From positions 186,001 to 250,000 of the forward strand of contig JABFQZ010000001.1 in NCBI GenBank assembly GCA_013141435.1: 64,000 bases of DNA, given 5' to 3'. Each line of letters opens with the position of its first letter. Position 1 is the first letter of the stretch. Source of the stretch: Ferruginibacter sp. Lineage in GTDB: Bacteria > Bacteroidota > Bacteroidia > Chitinophagales > Chitinophagaceae. Below are positions 1,797 through 58,654 of the stretch, one piece after another. Under the pieces are notes generated by a model. It saw only the letters and a program-made list of their open reading frames with translations. It ran no database searches and was not told where the DNA came from. The position numbers and the translations under genes were made by a program.

Positions 1797-2309
1797 CTAT
1801 CCATAAATTTCTAGCAACCCATCTGGCACATCTACATACACTTTTTTATTTTTATTATCCATTTTTATTAAGTTAGCTTCATGTATAGGTATTAGTGCCT
1901 CATTGCCATTATATAAGATAGTACAAAGTATTTGGTGAGGCATTTCCATTACCTCTATTATTGAGCCAAGGTCAGTTTCTCCATCAATTATATTATAGCC
2001 AAGCAATGCAATAGGCGCAGCTTTTGCTTTATGATTATTAAAATCATCTTCTTGTAACCACACTTCTTTTGGAGTTAATTTTCTTGCTATTTCTAAACTA
2101 TTTATGCCTTCCAGCTTTATGTATATTTCTGTATCGCTTTTAGAAGTAATTTTTTCAATAAAATGTGGCAAAAAATTATTTTTTGGCTGCTCCAAAAAAA
2201 TTGCTTCTACACCTTTCAACAAAGTTTTTTTTCCTAAACTATGTTGCAAAATTAACTCTCCAGTAATGCCATGGCTTGCTGCCAATTTCCCAATTTTAAA
2301 ATATTGCAT
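1797..2309 (-). CDS. rimM: ribosome maturation factor RimM
   Basis: A 170-residue RimM, which binds ribosomal protein S19 and helps maturation of the 30S subunit head. The N-terminal RimM domain (about 1-85) contains GKLAASHGITGEL, and the C-terminal half is a PRC-barrel (about 95-168) ending near VDVPDGLLEIYG. Length matches the family. In many bacteria rimM follows rpsP; here no rpsP lies upstream within the window, and the next gene upstream is tonB on the other strand. Confidence 0.93.
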   Translation of the reverse strand: MQYFKIGKLAASHGITGELILQHSLGKKTLLKGVEAIFLEQPKNNFLPHFIEKITSKSDTEIYIKLEGINSLEIARKLTPKEVWLQEDDFNNHKAKAAPIALLGYNIIDGETDLGSIIEVMEMPHQILCTILYNGNEALIPIHEANLIKMDNKNKKVYVDVPDGLLEIYG

Positions 2310-2394
2310 ATAGCAAATTTATTTTATAGTTTTCAAACAAAATTTATTTTTTTCATTTGGGGCTATCTGCATTATTACTATATTCAACATTAGT

Positions 2395-2497
2395 TGGCGC
2401 TTTTCGTTACAATCTTATATTGCCCCAAATGCAGGCAATATAAGGATTTACACTACAATCCCCAGCCCATCATCAGCATATCTTTTATCAACATTTA
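2395..2497 (+). repeat. dispersed hairpin element, copy A
   Basis: One of three related copies (others at 16128-16232 and, reversed, 56463-56560). A perfect 11-bp stem (2414-2424 with 2434-2444, 9-base loop) is bracketed by conserved flanks: TTCGTTACAATC on the left and CTACAATCCCCAGCC on the right, followed at a fixed distance by TCTTTTATCAACATTTA. The stem sequence differs between copies while the flanks are conserved. Function unknown. Confidence 0.7.
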
Positions 2498-2576
2498 TGG
2501 AAATTATTTGTAATTGTATCTTATAACCAAACGGCCGTTTTTAATTTTATATTTTCATTATTTAAAAACTACTATT

Positions 2577-14937: not shown

Positions 14938-15999
14938 ATGTTCCTTACAATAGCAATAGCCACCATAATCGAAAAACTAATACTCATTACAATAGTAGTA
15001 ATGGGATCGCTTGTAATAGCCATGTACACTACATTTGCCGAGCGTAAAGTAGCAGGGCTTTTGCAAGATAGACCAGGGCCAAACCGTGCAGGTCCATTTG
15101 GTCTATTTCAACCATTGGCCGATGGGTTAAAACTCTTTTTTAAAGAAGAAATAATACCAAACTTTTCATCTAAAATATTATTCGTACTTGGCCCAGCTCT
15201 AGCCATGATGACAGCAATAATGACAAGCGCAGTTATACCTTGGGGCGACAAATTACAACTTTTCAACAAAGATATTTCCCTACAAATAGCCGATATAAAC
15301 ATAGGAATACTATACGTTTTTGGGGTAGTAAGTTTGGGCGTATATGGCATAATGATAGGCAGTTGGGCAAGCAACAATAAATACTCCTTAATGGGCGGTT
15401 TGCGTGCCGCATCACAAATAATAAGTTACGAATTACCAATGGGTATAGCACTCATTGCACTACTTATGCTCACAGGCACACTAAGCCTAAAAGAAATGGT
15501 GGTACAACAACAAGCTGGCTATTGGAATATTATTTACCAACCATTAGGCTTTTTAATATTCATCATTTGTGCATTTGCCGAGTGCAATCGTACACCTTTC
15601 GATTTGGCAGAAGCTGAAAGCGAACTAATTGGAGGTTACCACACCGAGTATTCATCCATGAAACTGGGCTTCTATTTATTTGCAGAATATATAAATATGT
15701 TTATAAGCAGTGCCGTAATGGCTACACTATATTTCGGTGGGTACGATATGCCGTTTTTTAATGAAGCTGCACATGCCAATTGGGGCAATTGGTTAGCACT
15801 TATTGGTATAGTTGCTTTTATGTTTAAAATAATAATATTTATATTTATTTTTATGTGGGTTCGGTGGACAGTACCAAGGTTTAGATACGATCAACTAATG
15901 AACCTAGGTTGGCGTATTTTAATACCATTGGCACTATTTAATATGCTAGCAACAGGTACAATAATTTTAGCAAAAGCCAATCACTTATTGTGGTGGTAA
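14938..15999 (+). CDS. nuoH: NADH-quinone oxidoreductase subunit H
   Basis: A 353-residue membrane subunit (ND1-like) that joins the quinone site to the proton-pumping arm. Typical motifs: QDRPGPNRAGPFGLFQPLAD near residue 40, and ECNRTPFDLAEAESELI (acidic E-channel residues) near residue 220. About eight membrane helices. It starts at an ATG 95 bases after nuoG. Confidence 0.97.
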   Translation: MFLTIAIATIIEKLILITIVVMGSLVIAMYTTFAERKVAGLLQDRPGPNRAGPFGLFQPLADGLKLFFKEEIIPNFSSKILFVLGPALAMMTAIMTSAVIPWGDKLQLFNKDISLQIADINIGILYVFGVVSLGVYGIMIGSWASNNKYSLMGGLRAASQIISYELPMGIALIALLMLTGTLSLKEMVVQQQAGYWNIIYQPLGFLIFIICAFAECNRTPFDLAEAESELIGGYHTEYSSMKLGFYLFAEYINMFISSAVMATLYFGGYDMPFFNEAAHANWGNWLALIGIVAFMFKIIIFIFIFMWVRWTVPRFRYDQLMNLGWRILIPLALFNMLATGTIILAKANHLLWW

Positions 16000-16090: not shown

Positions 16091-16127
16091 ATTGGGCTTT
16101 CAACATCAGTTCTTTGTAAAACATTTG

Positions 16128-16232
16128 TTCGGGCTATTCGCTACAATCTTTTTTTGTTTCAAAAGCAAACAAAAAAAGTATTTCCGCTACTATCCCGCAG
16201 CCAATCAACGGTAAATCTTTAATCAACATTTA
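16128..16232 (+). repeat. dispersed hairpin element, copy B
   Basis: TTCGGGCTATTCGCTACAAT precedes a perfect 12-bp stem (16148-16159 with 16167-16178, 7-base loop), then TATTTCCGCTACTATCCCGC, and after about 15 bases AATCTTTAATCAACATTTA. Same architecture as 2395-2497, and as 56463-56560 reversed. Confidence 0.75.
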
Positions 16233-16428
16233 CAGCGCAAAAGTAAAAACTGTGTTCACTGTTATCACTGTTTCGCTGAGTGAAAAAAAAAATCCTAAAT
16301 TTGCAAAAACTAATAAATAAAAACTTGAATTTAAACCATAAATAATTAGCATAAATCAACATATTATTTCAAAAAAATTAAAAATTACTGCTCACACATT
16401 ATAGAGCAATTAGAAAAAGAAATATAAA

Positions 16429-16986
16429 ATGCAACCATTAACAAACAGAGCAAAAAGCGTAAGCAGAAAACCACTAAGTTTTTTGGAAAGCATTTATTTG
16501 CCAGCCATATTTAAAGGCATGCTTATTACCTTTAAGCACATGTTTACAAAAAATCCAACAGTTTATTATCCTGAAAAAAAACGAGAATTTAGCCCAGTAT
16601 TTAGAGGCTTACAAATATTAAATAGAGATGAAGAAGGTCGTGAAAACTGCACAGCATGTGGTTTGTGTGCAGTAGCTTGCCCAGCCGAAGCCATAACAAT
16701 GGAAGCTGCAGAGCGTAAAATTGGTGAAGAACATTTATACCGAGAAGAAAAATATGCAGCCACTTACGAAATAAACATGCTGCGTTGTATATTTTGTGGC
16801 CTTTGCGAAGAAGCTTGCCCAAAAGATGCTATTTACCTTAGCGAAACCTTTACCCCAGCAGAGTATAACCGCAAACAATTTATATACAACAAACAAGAGT
16901 TACTAATACCAAACCCAATTACCAATAAAGAAGCATACGAAAAAGCATTAGGAAATCGACCAAAAAAAACAACAGTTAACTCATAA
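16429..16986 (+). CDS. nuoI: NADH-quinone oxidoreductase subunit I
   Basis: A 185-residue ferredoxin-like subunit with two [4Fe-4S] clusters (N6a, N6b). The motifs are CTACGLCAVACPAEA at about residue 67 and CIFCGLCEEACPKDA at about residue 121. The N-terminal amphipathic segment (SIYLPAIFKGMLITFKHMF) docks on the membrane. nuoJ starts 5 bases after its stop. Confidence 0.97.
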   Translation: MQPLTNRAKSVSRKPLSFLESIYLPAIFKGMLITFKHMFTKNPTVYYPEKKREFSPVFRGLQILNRDEEGRENCTACGLCAVACPAEAITMEAAERKIGEEHLYREEKYAATYEINMLRCIFCGLCEEACPKDAIYLSETFTPAEYNRKQFIYNKQELLIPNPITNKEAYEKALGNRPKKTTVNS

Positions 16987-55310: not shown

Positions 55311-56330
55311 TTAATTTTTAAAAATATCTGCCCATGTTAATACTACAGTATTATTTTTATTTGCAAATGCAGTAGCTTCCTCTTTGGTATTAAATGCTGC
55401 AGTATTACCTCCCATAGGACTTTTTATTTCATCGCTTTTTACATAAAATGCTTTAGTAGCATCTATTAAAATATTGGCTAGCATGTAATCATTTACGAAG
55501 TATTTTTTTACTATAACTTTTGTATTTTCTTTGTTATAGTTTAACATACATTTTATGTCGTCGAATTTATAAGCTCTGCTTTTTTGTGTTATTATTTCTG
55601 CTGCCAATCTATTGTTTGCAATTGTCATGGTACAATAATCGCATTTATCTTTGTGCAATAGTATTGGCTGAGCTTCGGTGTTACTGCAACTGGTAAAGGC
55701 GCTTGCTGCTATAAAAAATATAGTAGCAGCTAGTGCAGTTTTTTTCTTAAATATTTTTGTTAATAATTTTGTTTCTATTAAAACGGCTGCAAGTAATAAT
55801 ACGCCACCTATTATCATTAACCATCCGCCCATATCGGGTACAGAAAATGCTCCAAAATTTAGTAGTTGCTTATAACCTATAAGTGGTGGTTGGTAACTCA
55901 TACCAGGCACTATAATTGCTGCTGTAGGGTCTAAATTGTGGCCATAGTTATACTCCCAACGCCAAAAATCGACCATGGCTACAATACCAAAAATTACAAA
56001 TACCCAAAACGAAAAAAATAGCAATTTTTTTTTGCCAATTATGGCTGTTACTAACATAAGTAATGCAAAGAATCCGAGTAAATATTGTAATATAGAAAAC
56101 TCTATAAAATTTTCGGCATGTAAGGTTTGCATACCAATATAATGGTTTAGGCCATTTATAATATCTACTTGTCCGCCCAATTTATTGGCAAAAATTTGCA
56201 GCATCAGTCCTTCGGGGTATTGTGGTGCTGCTAACTCTATACGCCATAGTGGTACAAAAATTGTAATTGCTAATAAAATTGCCGATACAAATACTAAAAC
56301 TTTTGATAAAATATTTATTTTATTTTTCAT
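55311..56330 (-). CDS. nosL: NosL fused to an N-terminal multi-spanning membrane domain
   Basis: A 339-residue fusion. Residues about 1-200 contain four or five helices with an extracytoplasmic loop; a second lipoprotein-like segment (ASAFTSCSN, about residue 216) leads into a NosL domain with the copper ligand motif KCDYCTMTIANNRLA and YKFDDIKCML. NosL delivers Cu(I) to NosZ. In proteobacteria it is a free lipoprotein; the fused form keeps it membrane-anchored. First gene of the nosL-D-F-Y unit. Confidence 0.88.
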   Translation of the reverse strand: MKNKINILSKVLVFVSAILLAITIFVPLWRIELAAPQYPEGLMLQIFANKLGGQVDIINGLNHYIGMQTLHAENFIEFSILQYLLGFFALLMLVTAIIGKKKLLFFSFWVFVIFGIVAMVDFWRWEYNYGHNLDPTAAIIVPGMSYQPPLIGYKQLLNFGAFSVPDMGGWLMIIGGVLLLAAVLIETKLLTKIFKKKTALAATIFFIAASAFTSCSNTEAQPILLHKDKCDYCTMTIANNRLAAEIITQKSRAYKFDDIKCMLNYNKENTKVIVKKYFVNDYMLANILIDATKAFYVKSDEIKSPMGGNTAAFNTKEEATAFANKNNTVVLTWADIFKN

Positions 56331-56462
56331 TTTCTTCTTTTTTATTTGTGTTTTTTTGCCACATATTATATGCTACTAATCAGTTTTTTTTGCATCAACT
56401 TTTATATTGTTTTTTATTTTTTATTGCCTTTGTTAGCAATAAAAAAAGCTTATTTTTTTGTA

Positions 56463-56560
56463 TGTTGATTAAAAAACTGTTGCTTAGCCTAGCCCTGATA
56501 GGAGCGGAAATATTTTTTTTGTTGCCTTTTGGCAAAAAAAATATTGTAGTGTATAGCAGG
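56463..56560 (-). repeat. dispersed hairpin element, copy C (reverse orientation)
   Basis: Reads TGTTGATTAAA, about 20 bases, then GATAGGAGCGGAAATA, a hairpin around TTGCCTTTTGGCAA, then ATTGTAGTGTATAGC. It is the reverse complement of the layout at 16128-16232 and 2395-2497. Confidence 0.72.
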
Positions 56561-56615
56561 AAACTACTGTAGAAAAAATTGCTAATGCCGCTGCTTCTAT
56601 ATTTTAAATTTTATT

Positions 56616-56674: not shown

Positions 56675-58654
56675 TTATTTTATTTCAGGTACAGGTTTTC
56701 CTAGGCTAAAGGTAATAGGTACGCTGCTTCCAGCAGGCGATACACGTACGTATCCTTGCATTTCTTGATGCAATGCGCTGCAAAAATCGGTACAATACAT
56801 TGGGAACATTCCTACTCTATCTGGTACCCATTTTAGGGTGCAAGTTTCGCCGGGCATTATTAAAAGCTCCGCATTGTTGGCTCCTTTTATGGCAAAGCCA
56901 TGTGGTACATCCCAGTCTTGCTCTAGGTTGGTTACATGAAAATAAACTTCGTCGCCAAGTTTTATACCTTCTATATTATCGGGTGCAAAATGGCTGCGTA
57001 TAGATGTCATATAAACATGTACTTTATTTCCTTCACGTACCACTTTGGCTTCGGCTTCGCCATTGGTTTTGTAGGGGTGTATATTATCGGCAATTTTGTA
57101 TATTTTTAATTGCCCATTGTTTCGTATTAAATCGGCTGGTGCGGCTTGTGCATAGTGTGGCTCTCCTATGGTTGGAAAATCTAAAATCATTTGCATTTTA
57201 TCGCCACTTATATCAAATAATTGTGCACTTTGTGTAAGCTCTGGTCCTGTTGGCAGGTATCTATCTTTTGTAATTTTGTTGTAGGCTATTAAATATTTGC
57301 CCCAAGGTTTTACGGTATTACCACCCGGAATACATAAATGACCAACTGAGTAAAATGTAGGAGCTCTATCAAGCACTTTTAAATCTTTTATATTCCATTT
57401 TACAATTTCAGACGATACAAAAAATGATGTGTATGCGTTGCCTTTGCCATCGAACTCAGTATGTAAAGGGCCAAGGCCAGGTTTTTTTACTTCGCCATAC
57501 AATGCAGCTTCGTATTTTATTACAGGTATGCCTTCATAATCGCCGTCGAATGTTTTATCTGTTATGGCTTTTTGCAATTTGTCGTAACTAAATACTGGTA
57601 TTAAAGCTGCTAGTTTTCCGCTACCTACAATGTACTCGCCAGTTGGGTCTACATCGCAACCATGTGGCGATTTTGGGCAAGGTATAAAATAACAAATGTC
57701 TTTAAAATCTTTTATGTCTAAAACCAATACTTCGTTTTCTATTTTAGATGTGGCAGTTTGTGTAGCTTCATTAAACACATTGTGAGCATACTTTACAGCG
57801 GTTTTAGTGCCTTTGCCTGCTTTAATGTACTCTTCGGCTTTTTTCCAGTTTACAGCCATAATGAAATCTTTATCTTTTTGGCTTGCGTTTACTTCTAGTA
57901 ATGTGCTTGCTTGCTCGGTATTATAACAACTAAAGAAAAACCAGCCATGCGATTTGCCTTTGCCTGCTCTTGCCAAATCAAAATTTACTCCAGGTGTACG
58001 TAATTGAAATGCAATTTTCATTTCGCCAGTTTCGGGAGCTATGCTCACAAAGCTTAAATGCCCTTTAAAATTCTTTTTGTATGAATTAATGGGCACATCA
58101 CCGTTATCTGCATCGCTGGGTACGCTAAACCTTGTGCCTGCTACAATATACTCAGAGTTTTCGGTGCCAAAAGGCGAGCTATGGTTGCCACCGCTATTGG
58201 GTAATTCTATAATTTCGGCAGTACGAAAAGTTTTTAAATCTATACGTGCCAATCGGGGAGTATTGTTTGCATTTGCAAAAGCCCATTTGCCATTTTGCTC
58301 TCCTTTTGTTTGAGATAATTCTATGTGATGCAAATCGTCCCATGGTACAAAACCATGCGAAGTATTTAGCATTGGTTTTGTTTCTTCATTGTACCCCCAA
58401 CCTTTTTCGGGATCAACAGAAAATACAGGTATGTATCTAAATAAACGACCACTTGGCAAACCATACACACTCATTTGCCCACTAAAACCACCCGATACAA
58501 AATTGTAAAACTCATCGTATTTGCCAGGTGCTACGTATGCTTTTGTAGCATCACCACTTGAGGCTGTTGCAGTATTTTTTGGTTTGCAGCCATTAATACC
58601 TAATGTTATTGCAATTGCTGTAAAGCAAAGAGCAATGTTTTTTATTCGGTTCAT
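56675..58654 (-). CDS. nosZ: nitrous-oxide reductase (clade II type)
   Basis: A 659-residue copper enzyme reducing N2O to N2 in the periplasm. The signal peptide has no twin arginine and ends in INGC (Cys23), so export is by Sec and it is probably a lipoprotein, as in clade II (atypical) NosZ. The seven-bladed propeller with CuZ ligands is visible (DDLHHIELSQ, SPHGCDVDPTGEY, GPLHTEFDGKG, EPHYAQ). The C-terminal cupredoxin has the CuA set CTDFCSALHQEM (Cys621, Cys625, His629, Met632). It follows a cytochrome c gene by 17 bases. Confidence 0.97.
   Translation of the reverse strand: MNRIKNIALCFTAIAITLGINGCKPKNTATASSGDATKAYVAPGKYDEFYNFVSGGFSGQMSVYGLPSGRLFRYIPVFSVDPEKGWGYNEETKPMLNTSHGFVPWDDLHHIELSQTKGEQNGKWAFANANNTPRLARIDLKTFRTAEIIELPNSGGNHSSPFGTENSEYIVAGTRFSVPSDADNGDVPINSYKKNFKGHLSFVSIAPETGEMKIAFQLRTPGVNFDLARAGKGKSHGWFFFSCYNTEQASTLLEVNASQKDKDFIMAVNWKKAEEYIKAGKGTKTAVKYAHNVFNEATQTATSKIENEVLVLDIKDFKDICYFIPCPKSPHGCDVDPTGEYIVGSGKLAALIPVFSYDKLQKAITDKTFDGDYEGIPVIKYEAALYGEVKKPGLGPLHTEFDGKGNAYTSFFVSSEIVKWNIKDLKVLDRAPTFYSVGHLCIPGGNTVKPWGKYLIAYNKITKDRYLPTGPELTQSAQLFDISGDKMQMILDFPTIGEPHYAQAAPADLIRNNGQLKIYKIADNIHPYKTNGEAEAKVVREGNKVHVYMTSIRSHFAPDNIEGIKLGDEVYFHVTNLEQDWDVPHGFAIKGANNAELLIMPGETCTLKWVPDRVGMFPMYCTDFCSALHQEMQGYVRVSPAGSSVPITFSLGKPVPEIK

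Follow-up and report, generated by a model that had tools for sequence, protein, structure and literature searches.

Flavo-1 as a possible REP-like DNA element with a maintained fold and an exchangeable tip

MITEs are short, non-coding and dispersed, and so is the element considered here, with the difference that the latter has no visible long terminal inverted repeats and that no target duplication was found. Its catalogue entry is Flavo-1 (RF01705; PMC2864571, as far as the available text goes), typed by Rfam as an sRNA gene, i.e. a candidate RNA without known function, and listed by a review with the small RNAs of highest abundance, where the part available gives it no function (PMC9029176). 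REP and REPIN sequences with their RAYT, as described in the accessible portions of two papers (PMC8266576, PMC8049555), share with Flavo-1 that they are dispersed extragenic hairpins with interrupted stems and long persistence.

The window, by which we mean the whole 64-kb stretch of DNA analysed, contains three copies that all match the Rfam Flavo-1 model above its gathering score of 42 bits (Table 1; window-wide E of 4.7e-13 to 1.4e-7), and a search of the window with this model at E 0.5 returned none beyond these three. Their coordinates agree with the three places at which the first-pass annotation had seen a dispersed repeat. The window element is a member of Flavo-1; this membership is already catalogued knowledge, and the new part is the reading as a DNA element, which was not found in the literature searched, as far as the text of the sources was available and with subscription papers outside its reach. 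Unlike the Rfam model, an sRNA type of 76 positions, the element seen here spans ~143 bp (rather than the ~100 bp first estimated), has the model as its middle part and behaves like a DNA repeat; its ends are approximate because they were set where conservation fades. We give just short of an even chance to Flavo-1 being a REP-like DNA element, the folded strand of which would be maintained at its sites, with rare spread in trans and an exchangeable tip.

As first described, all three copies are intergenic, lying between rimM and a 295-aa ORF (copy 1), nuoH and nuoI (copy 2, the focal copy), and genes for the nosZ-type and NosL-type proteins (copy 3). The fixed flanks recur in every one of them, and so does the common word at a set distance, of the type ATCTTTwATCAACATTTA (the outer arm U), albeit more weakly in copy 3. 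The paired hairpin between the flanks indeed differs in sequence from copy to copy, though not completely, a T-run being common to copies 2 and 3.

Table 1. Flavo-1 copies, parts of the focal copy and neighbouring genes in the window
Feature	Position	Strand	Basis or remark
rimM, neighbour of copy 1	1797..2309	-	
Copy 1, full extent	2360..2502	-	Rfam core 2389-2472, 49.2 bits
nuoH (Pfam NADHdh), to the left of focal copy	14938..15999	+	
Focal copy (copy 2), whole element from arm U through P1 3' side, approximate ends	16094..16236	-	Segmentation of 129 copies and conservation outside the Rfam model
Focal copy, Rfam Flavo-1 core	16123..16206	-	66 bits
Zone with stem P1 3' side (AGCC)	16094..16100	-	Pairing test
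Arm D, word of same kind as U	16101..16129	-	Segmentation
Stem P2 3' side CCCG	16130..16133	-	Pairing test
GNA-RY-GNA 3' arm	16137..16144	-	
Variable hairpin P3	16145..16182	-	Pairing test
GNA-RY-GNA 5' arm	16183..16190	-	
Stem P2 5' side CGGG, pairs with 16130-16133	16194..16197	-	Pairing test
Zone with stem P1 5' side (GGCT)	16198..16206	-	Pairing test
Arm U (TGTTGA..AAAGAT word)	16209..16236	-	Segmentation
nuoI-like 4Fe-4S protein, to the right of focal copy	16429..16986	+	
NosL-domain protein, neighbour of copy 3	55311..56330	-	
Copy 3, full extent	56455..56596	+	Rfam core 56487-56567, 69 bits
nosZ-type protein (nos propeller), next to copy 3	56675..58654	-	

The anatomy was derived from 129 copies anchored on conserved inner arms, namely 63 of the source genome (G000), 42 of the 56 of G031 and 24 of the 63 of G036. 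On the Flavo-1 strand the order is U, P1, P2, an A-T and pair X, GNA-RY-GNA, hairpin P3, GNA-RY-GNA, X', P2', D and P1'. The GNA-RY-GNA arms are opposed, with an RY-RY helix of 2 bp between two 3x3 GNA/GNA loops, and the eight letters that close the loops are all canonical in 39/62 (G000), 32/42 (G031) and 5/24 (G036) copies. Outer arms U and D carry a common word that depends on the genome, TGYTGA..AAAGAT in G000 and G031 and ACGAAG in G036. The mean local score of G000 U was 7.66 against D of the same genome, 7.31 against that of G031 and 5.73 against that of G036; for U of G036 the difference was slight (5.93, versus 5.60 and 5.85 with D of G000 and G031). Within a copy, U and D were no more alike than between copies (z 0.3, 1.4 and 1.2), and the idea that the arms are target-site duplications is unsupported, given this lack of a within-copy excess and insertion ends that are only approximate.

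Pairing within copies exceeded all 100 partner shuffles, which do not preserve relatedness among copies, for P1, P2, RY and P3 in both G000 and G031 (z 5.2–17.1). In G036 this held for RY and P3, while P2 was reached by one of the 100 shuffles and P1 by 13 (non-significant). Among the controls, U-D gave no signal, and the outside control reached z 1.8 in G000 (one of 60 shuffles) and at most 1.1 elsewhere. Pair X is Watson-Crick in 60/62 (G000), 37/42 (G031) and 24/24 (G036) copies; P2 of window copy 1 (GGGG/CGCC) has one mismatch. With dozens of copies whose stems covary, the proposal of selection on structure is supported, be it through selection or through correction.

Which strand folds? 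The Flavo-1 strand is predicted to fold more stably than its complement in 57/62 (G000), 35/42 (G031) and 23/24 (G036) copies. The share of G.T in the predicted folds is alike on both (Flavo-1 strand, 81 of 2585 pairs; complement, 93 of 2500) and hence does not tell the strands apart. Wobble in RY favours G.T over A.C, 14 versus 1 in G000 and G031 together and 5 versus 0 at an ortholog site. In P2 of the same two genomes the bias is reversed (G.T 2, A.C 7), which we count against the DNA-element reading, and in P3, too, A.C exceeds G.T, although the register used for this count takes no account of the bulge. An argument from DNA-specific triloops at GNA tips was dropped, as the tips belong to several families on inspection by eye.

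Further copies with compensatory stem changes, for which the first-pass annotation had proposed to search, are abundant. The source genome holds at least 63 matches at E 1e-3, with 45 exceeding the cut-off, a lower bound as 150 of 726 candidates were scored; distinct copies number 62, because a single copy appears twice, as L022 and L023, on two contigs with a common stretch. Its contigs C10 and C18 have a duplicated stretch in common, on each of which a Flavo-1 copy and a RAYT gene lie at matching distance, probably through assembly duplication. Two single-contig genomes have 38 (G469) and 30 (G276) matches, so that many extragenic palindromic copies, a trait of REPs, are found in Flavo-1 as well. 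Distribution within the genus is patchy, with matches in 41 of 93 genomes and none in 52; five of them have at least 35, where scoring stopped at 45 per genome. At class level, 148 of 396 genomes match, compared to 0 of 14 controls. Copies within a genome are diverged (median identity 0.62 in G000 and 0.66 in G031, unlike REP/REPIN sequences); the most similar pair reaches 0.85 in G000, and in G031, where both members of the pair are close to the end of a contig, 0.92. These two genomes thus show no recent burst of copies, which counts against the DNA-element reading.

Could Flavo-1 be the structured RNA that Rfam lists, acting in mRNA leaders, at 3' ends or as small RNAs? Covariation and the excess of G.T over A.C in RY on one strand are in line with this, and in the available text of a study on F. 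psychrophilum (PMC9723704) several 5' transcribed regions coincide with Flavo-1 matches. The same text, however, describes matches as indistinctly sense or antisense, with many outside transcribed regions. Nor is there a clear orientation preference relative to genes in the five genomes counted, where the element is sense to co-directional neighbours 36 times and antisense 41 times, and lies between divergent genes 31 times and between convergent ones 20 times; these figures rest on a simple ORF rule for neighbours, include 15 copies each from G469 (of 38) and G276 (of 30), and omit copies that an ORF overlaps (10 in G000, 9 in G031 and 5 in G036) or that lie at the edge of a contig (1, 4 and 2, respectively). 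Copies 2 and 3 of the window both run antisense to each of their flanking genes, and of two orthologous sites followed below, the element is sense to its neighbours at one (L427) and antisense at the other (L409). We judge a structured RNA to be unlikely.

Among 571 neighbouring proteins (G036 loci contributing only ~1 kb each side), no gene recurred, the largest cluster being four proteins from four loci. An orientation bias to replication, a trait of IS200/IS605-type elements, was not evident in the one genome that could be divided, G276, where 13 copies are on the leading and 17 on the lagging strand, as assigned by hand in 20 sampled windows; the skew of G469 was too irregular to divide. 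Two other dispersed words were met nearby. AATCTCAATAC has eight matches at seven distinct places in the G000 stretches examined (window 16048, L034, L040, L052, L054, L058); as these stretches were chosen round Flavo-1 copies, its nearness to them is uninformative. GCGAAACAGnGAT occurs at four distinct places, window 16264 (-) and 29785 (+), L033 and L037, one of which adjoins the focal copy.

Close relatives differ in whether they carry the element. At the nuoH-nuoI junction, the scan detected it only in G000 among 110 loci (some genomes being counted in two collections, and one junction unparsable); one other weak match, of 30.3, lies elsewhere in L235, and relatives of 91% identity have a 75-bp gap there. 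By eye, L172 has a Flavo-1-like variant at this junction, below Rfam E 0.5 and missed by the scan. In L168 the gap measures 766 bases and apparently holds a small nucleotidyltransferase-like gene (by eye, from the DNA). At the nosZ junction the element is present in one of 20 loci, that of G000 (one of the 20 being incomplete), and near rimM in G000 and G031 among 20 loci, the G031 match lying farther from rimM and in opposite orientation. A second Flavo-1-like variant was noticed by eye just upstream of rimM in L270. Genes flanking copy 1 are at separate places in G031 (L097, L108) with an element near each, i.e. the synteny break coincides with the element. Comparing 63 copies of G000 with 42 of G031, four pairs agree both in their place beside the neighbouring gene and in orientation, although one of these pairs involves the end of a contig.

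The element also occurs in candidate viral sequences. Six IMG/VR contigs bear the Flavo-1 pattern with scan scores of 50.7 to 59.7 (the 5th percentile of known copies is 36.8), two of which were checked with Rfam and yielded 57.8 and 59.2 bits. One of the six, L288, is a 5676-base contig of a microvirus, a single-stranded-DNA phage, as judged from its head, replication and pilot proteins; the 79 other microvirus loci of 80 fetched all score 25.9 or less and contain no Flavo-1. A blastn search of plasmid and phage collections with one Flavo-1 copy gave no match.

How long does a copy stay in place? The G276 copy at L427 served as the query against 150 genomes of its genus, which we take to be Flavobacterium; 148 matched, and the 30 best-scoring loci were examined, a choice biased towards loci that retain the element. 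It is present in 22 of these 30 best-matching species (19 parsed by rule, and L485, L499 and L505 by eye with a variant or degenerate frame) and missing in eight, with a possible remnant in two of them (L493, L494), which takes at least four changes on the tree of flanking genes. Across the 19 parsed loci, pair X reads TA 7, AT 6, GC 4, CG 1 and AA 1, i.e. Watson-Crick in 18/19 and of four types, with at least seven changes for the pair, 7 on the 5' side and 6 on the 3' side. In P2 one pair changed once, both sides together, and the other three are invariant. As a control within the element, the N.N positions of the GNA loops are paired in 8/19 and change without coupling. Template correction of palindromes could likewise make paired arms agree, but it should erase the GNA mismatches, which nevertheless persist; we infer that selection acting on the fold explains the maintained pairing more simply. 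P3 tips, by contrast with the rest of the fold, are swapped wholesale between many L427-site orthologs, close orthologs sharing a tip family. One tip family of G276, TTCGACTnCGCTCA, occurs nine times in 400 kb sampled of this genome, seven of them outside Flavo-1; L462 has a cluster of six matches to this palindrome family, which also forms Flavo-1 tips in G276. At the second site, L409, parsing recovered the element in six of the 30 top-scoring loci, always in one orientation, and L518 and L529 show it by eye.

That the element stays so long at one site while its paired positions change in step, and that near-identical copies are lacking in the two genomes measured, might suggest a stationary DNA site selected by the host, for instance for binding of a nucleoid protein, of gyrase or of a fork-related factor, and immobile today. 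Against this stand the patchy copy number inside one genus, the copy in a microvirus and junctions that are empty in close relatives; we regard a stationary site as improbable. Long residence in one place, wobble on one strand and GNA loops would also be compatible with a functional RNA, and we count them against the DNA-element reading, as we do the failure to find a target-site duplication, a recurrent neighbour gene or a mobiliser, the P1 result of G036 and the lack of an evident strand bias to replication. Between an RNA motif, a protein-bound hairpin and a REP-like unit, the first-pass annotation had made no choice; while Rfam lists an RNA, what was seen of orientation, of presence or absence between relatives and in the phage speaks more for a REP-like DNA element.

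If REP-like, is Flavo-1 a REP of a RAYT (TnpA_REP) system? High copy number, extragenic location, interrupted palindromes and a GTAG in many copies speak for it, and the REP-associated transposase that had been suggested as a check does exist: the RAYT profile has matches in 82 of the 93 genomes examined in the genus (40 over cut-off), and Y1_Tnp is present in 48 of 59 genomes. Simple co-occurrence with Y1_Tnp did not hold, G031 with its 56 copies having one weak Y1_Tnp match and seven with the RAYT profile. The transposase was, however, not found flanked by the element: 27 of 28 RAYT/Y1 loci are without Flavo-1 within ~1.5 kb each side (less at contig ends), the single exception being a RAYT-type gene of G031 that lies 930 bp from a copy. 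Twelve of the 28 are best profile matches in genomes with 0 to 3 Flavo-1 matches and as such of little informative value; the 16 informative ones are part of the matches in G000, G031, G032, G059, G077, G081 and G082, including three of G000 and three of G031. The RAYT gene on contig C10 of G000 (L389:2075-2347) adjoins alternating perfect palindromes of its own, GCTTGGTCTTTGACCAGC, likely its REP array, the core word of which turned up at no other place in the 358 kb of G000 examined. Moreover, the GTAG tag that is fixed beside the palindrome in GTAG-class REPs has a variable second base in Flavo-1, and one Flavo-1 site is kept across much of a genus. By the tests made, Flavo-1 is not a RAYT REP, and we hold this origin to be very improbable. 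Among the RAYT/Y1 loci and recurrent neighbour genes examined, no candidate mobiliser was found.

In the REP-like DNA element that we favour, one DNA strand would fold into a rod of P1, P2, the 2-bp helix between its two GNA/GNA loops and hairpin P3. A putative protein might recognise this folded DNA, rather than an RNA, in the way that a HuH enzyme recognises REP hairpins, and a putative enzyme acting in trans could add new copies on rare occasions. An inserted copy could then persist over genus-level time, its pairing kept by selection or correction and possibly of benefit to the host, while other palindromes replace the P3 tip and the rest of the fold stays. A wider claim appears doubtful to us, i.e. 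that Flavo-1 represents a population of DNA elements across many genera, with a GNA/GNA single-strand fold and a mobility borne by neither RAYT nor IS, entering single-stranded-DNA phages and offering exchanged palindromes a socket with maintained pairing. If Flavo-1 is a DNA element, its annotations as a small RNA mislead, and a question open since 2010 would become testable: which protein holds the fold, and why does the element stay in one and the same place through much of a genus while its tip is replaced?
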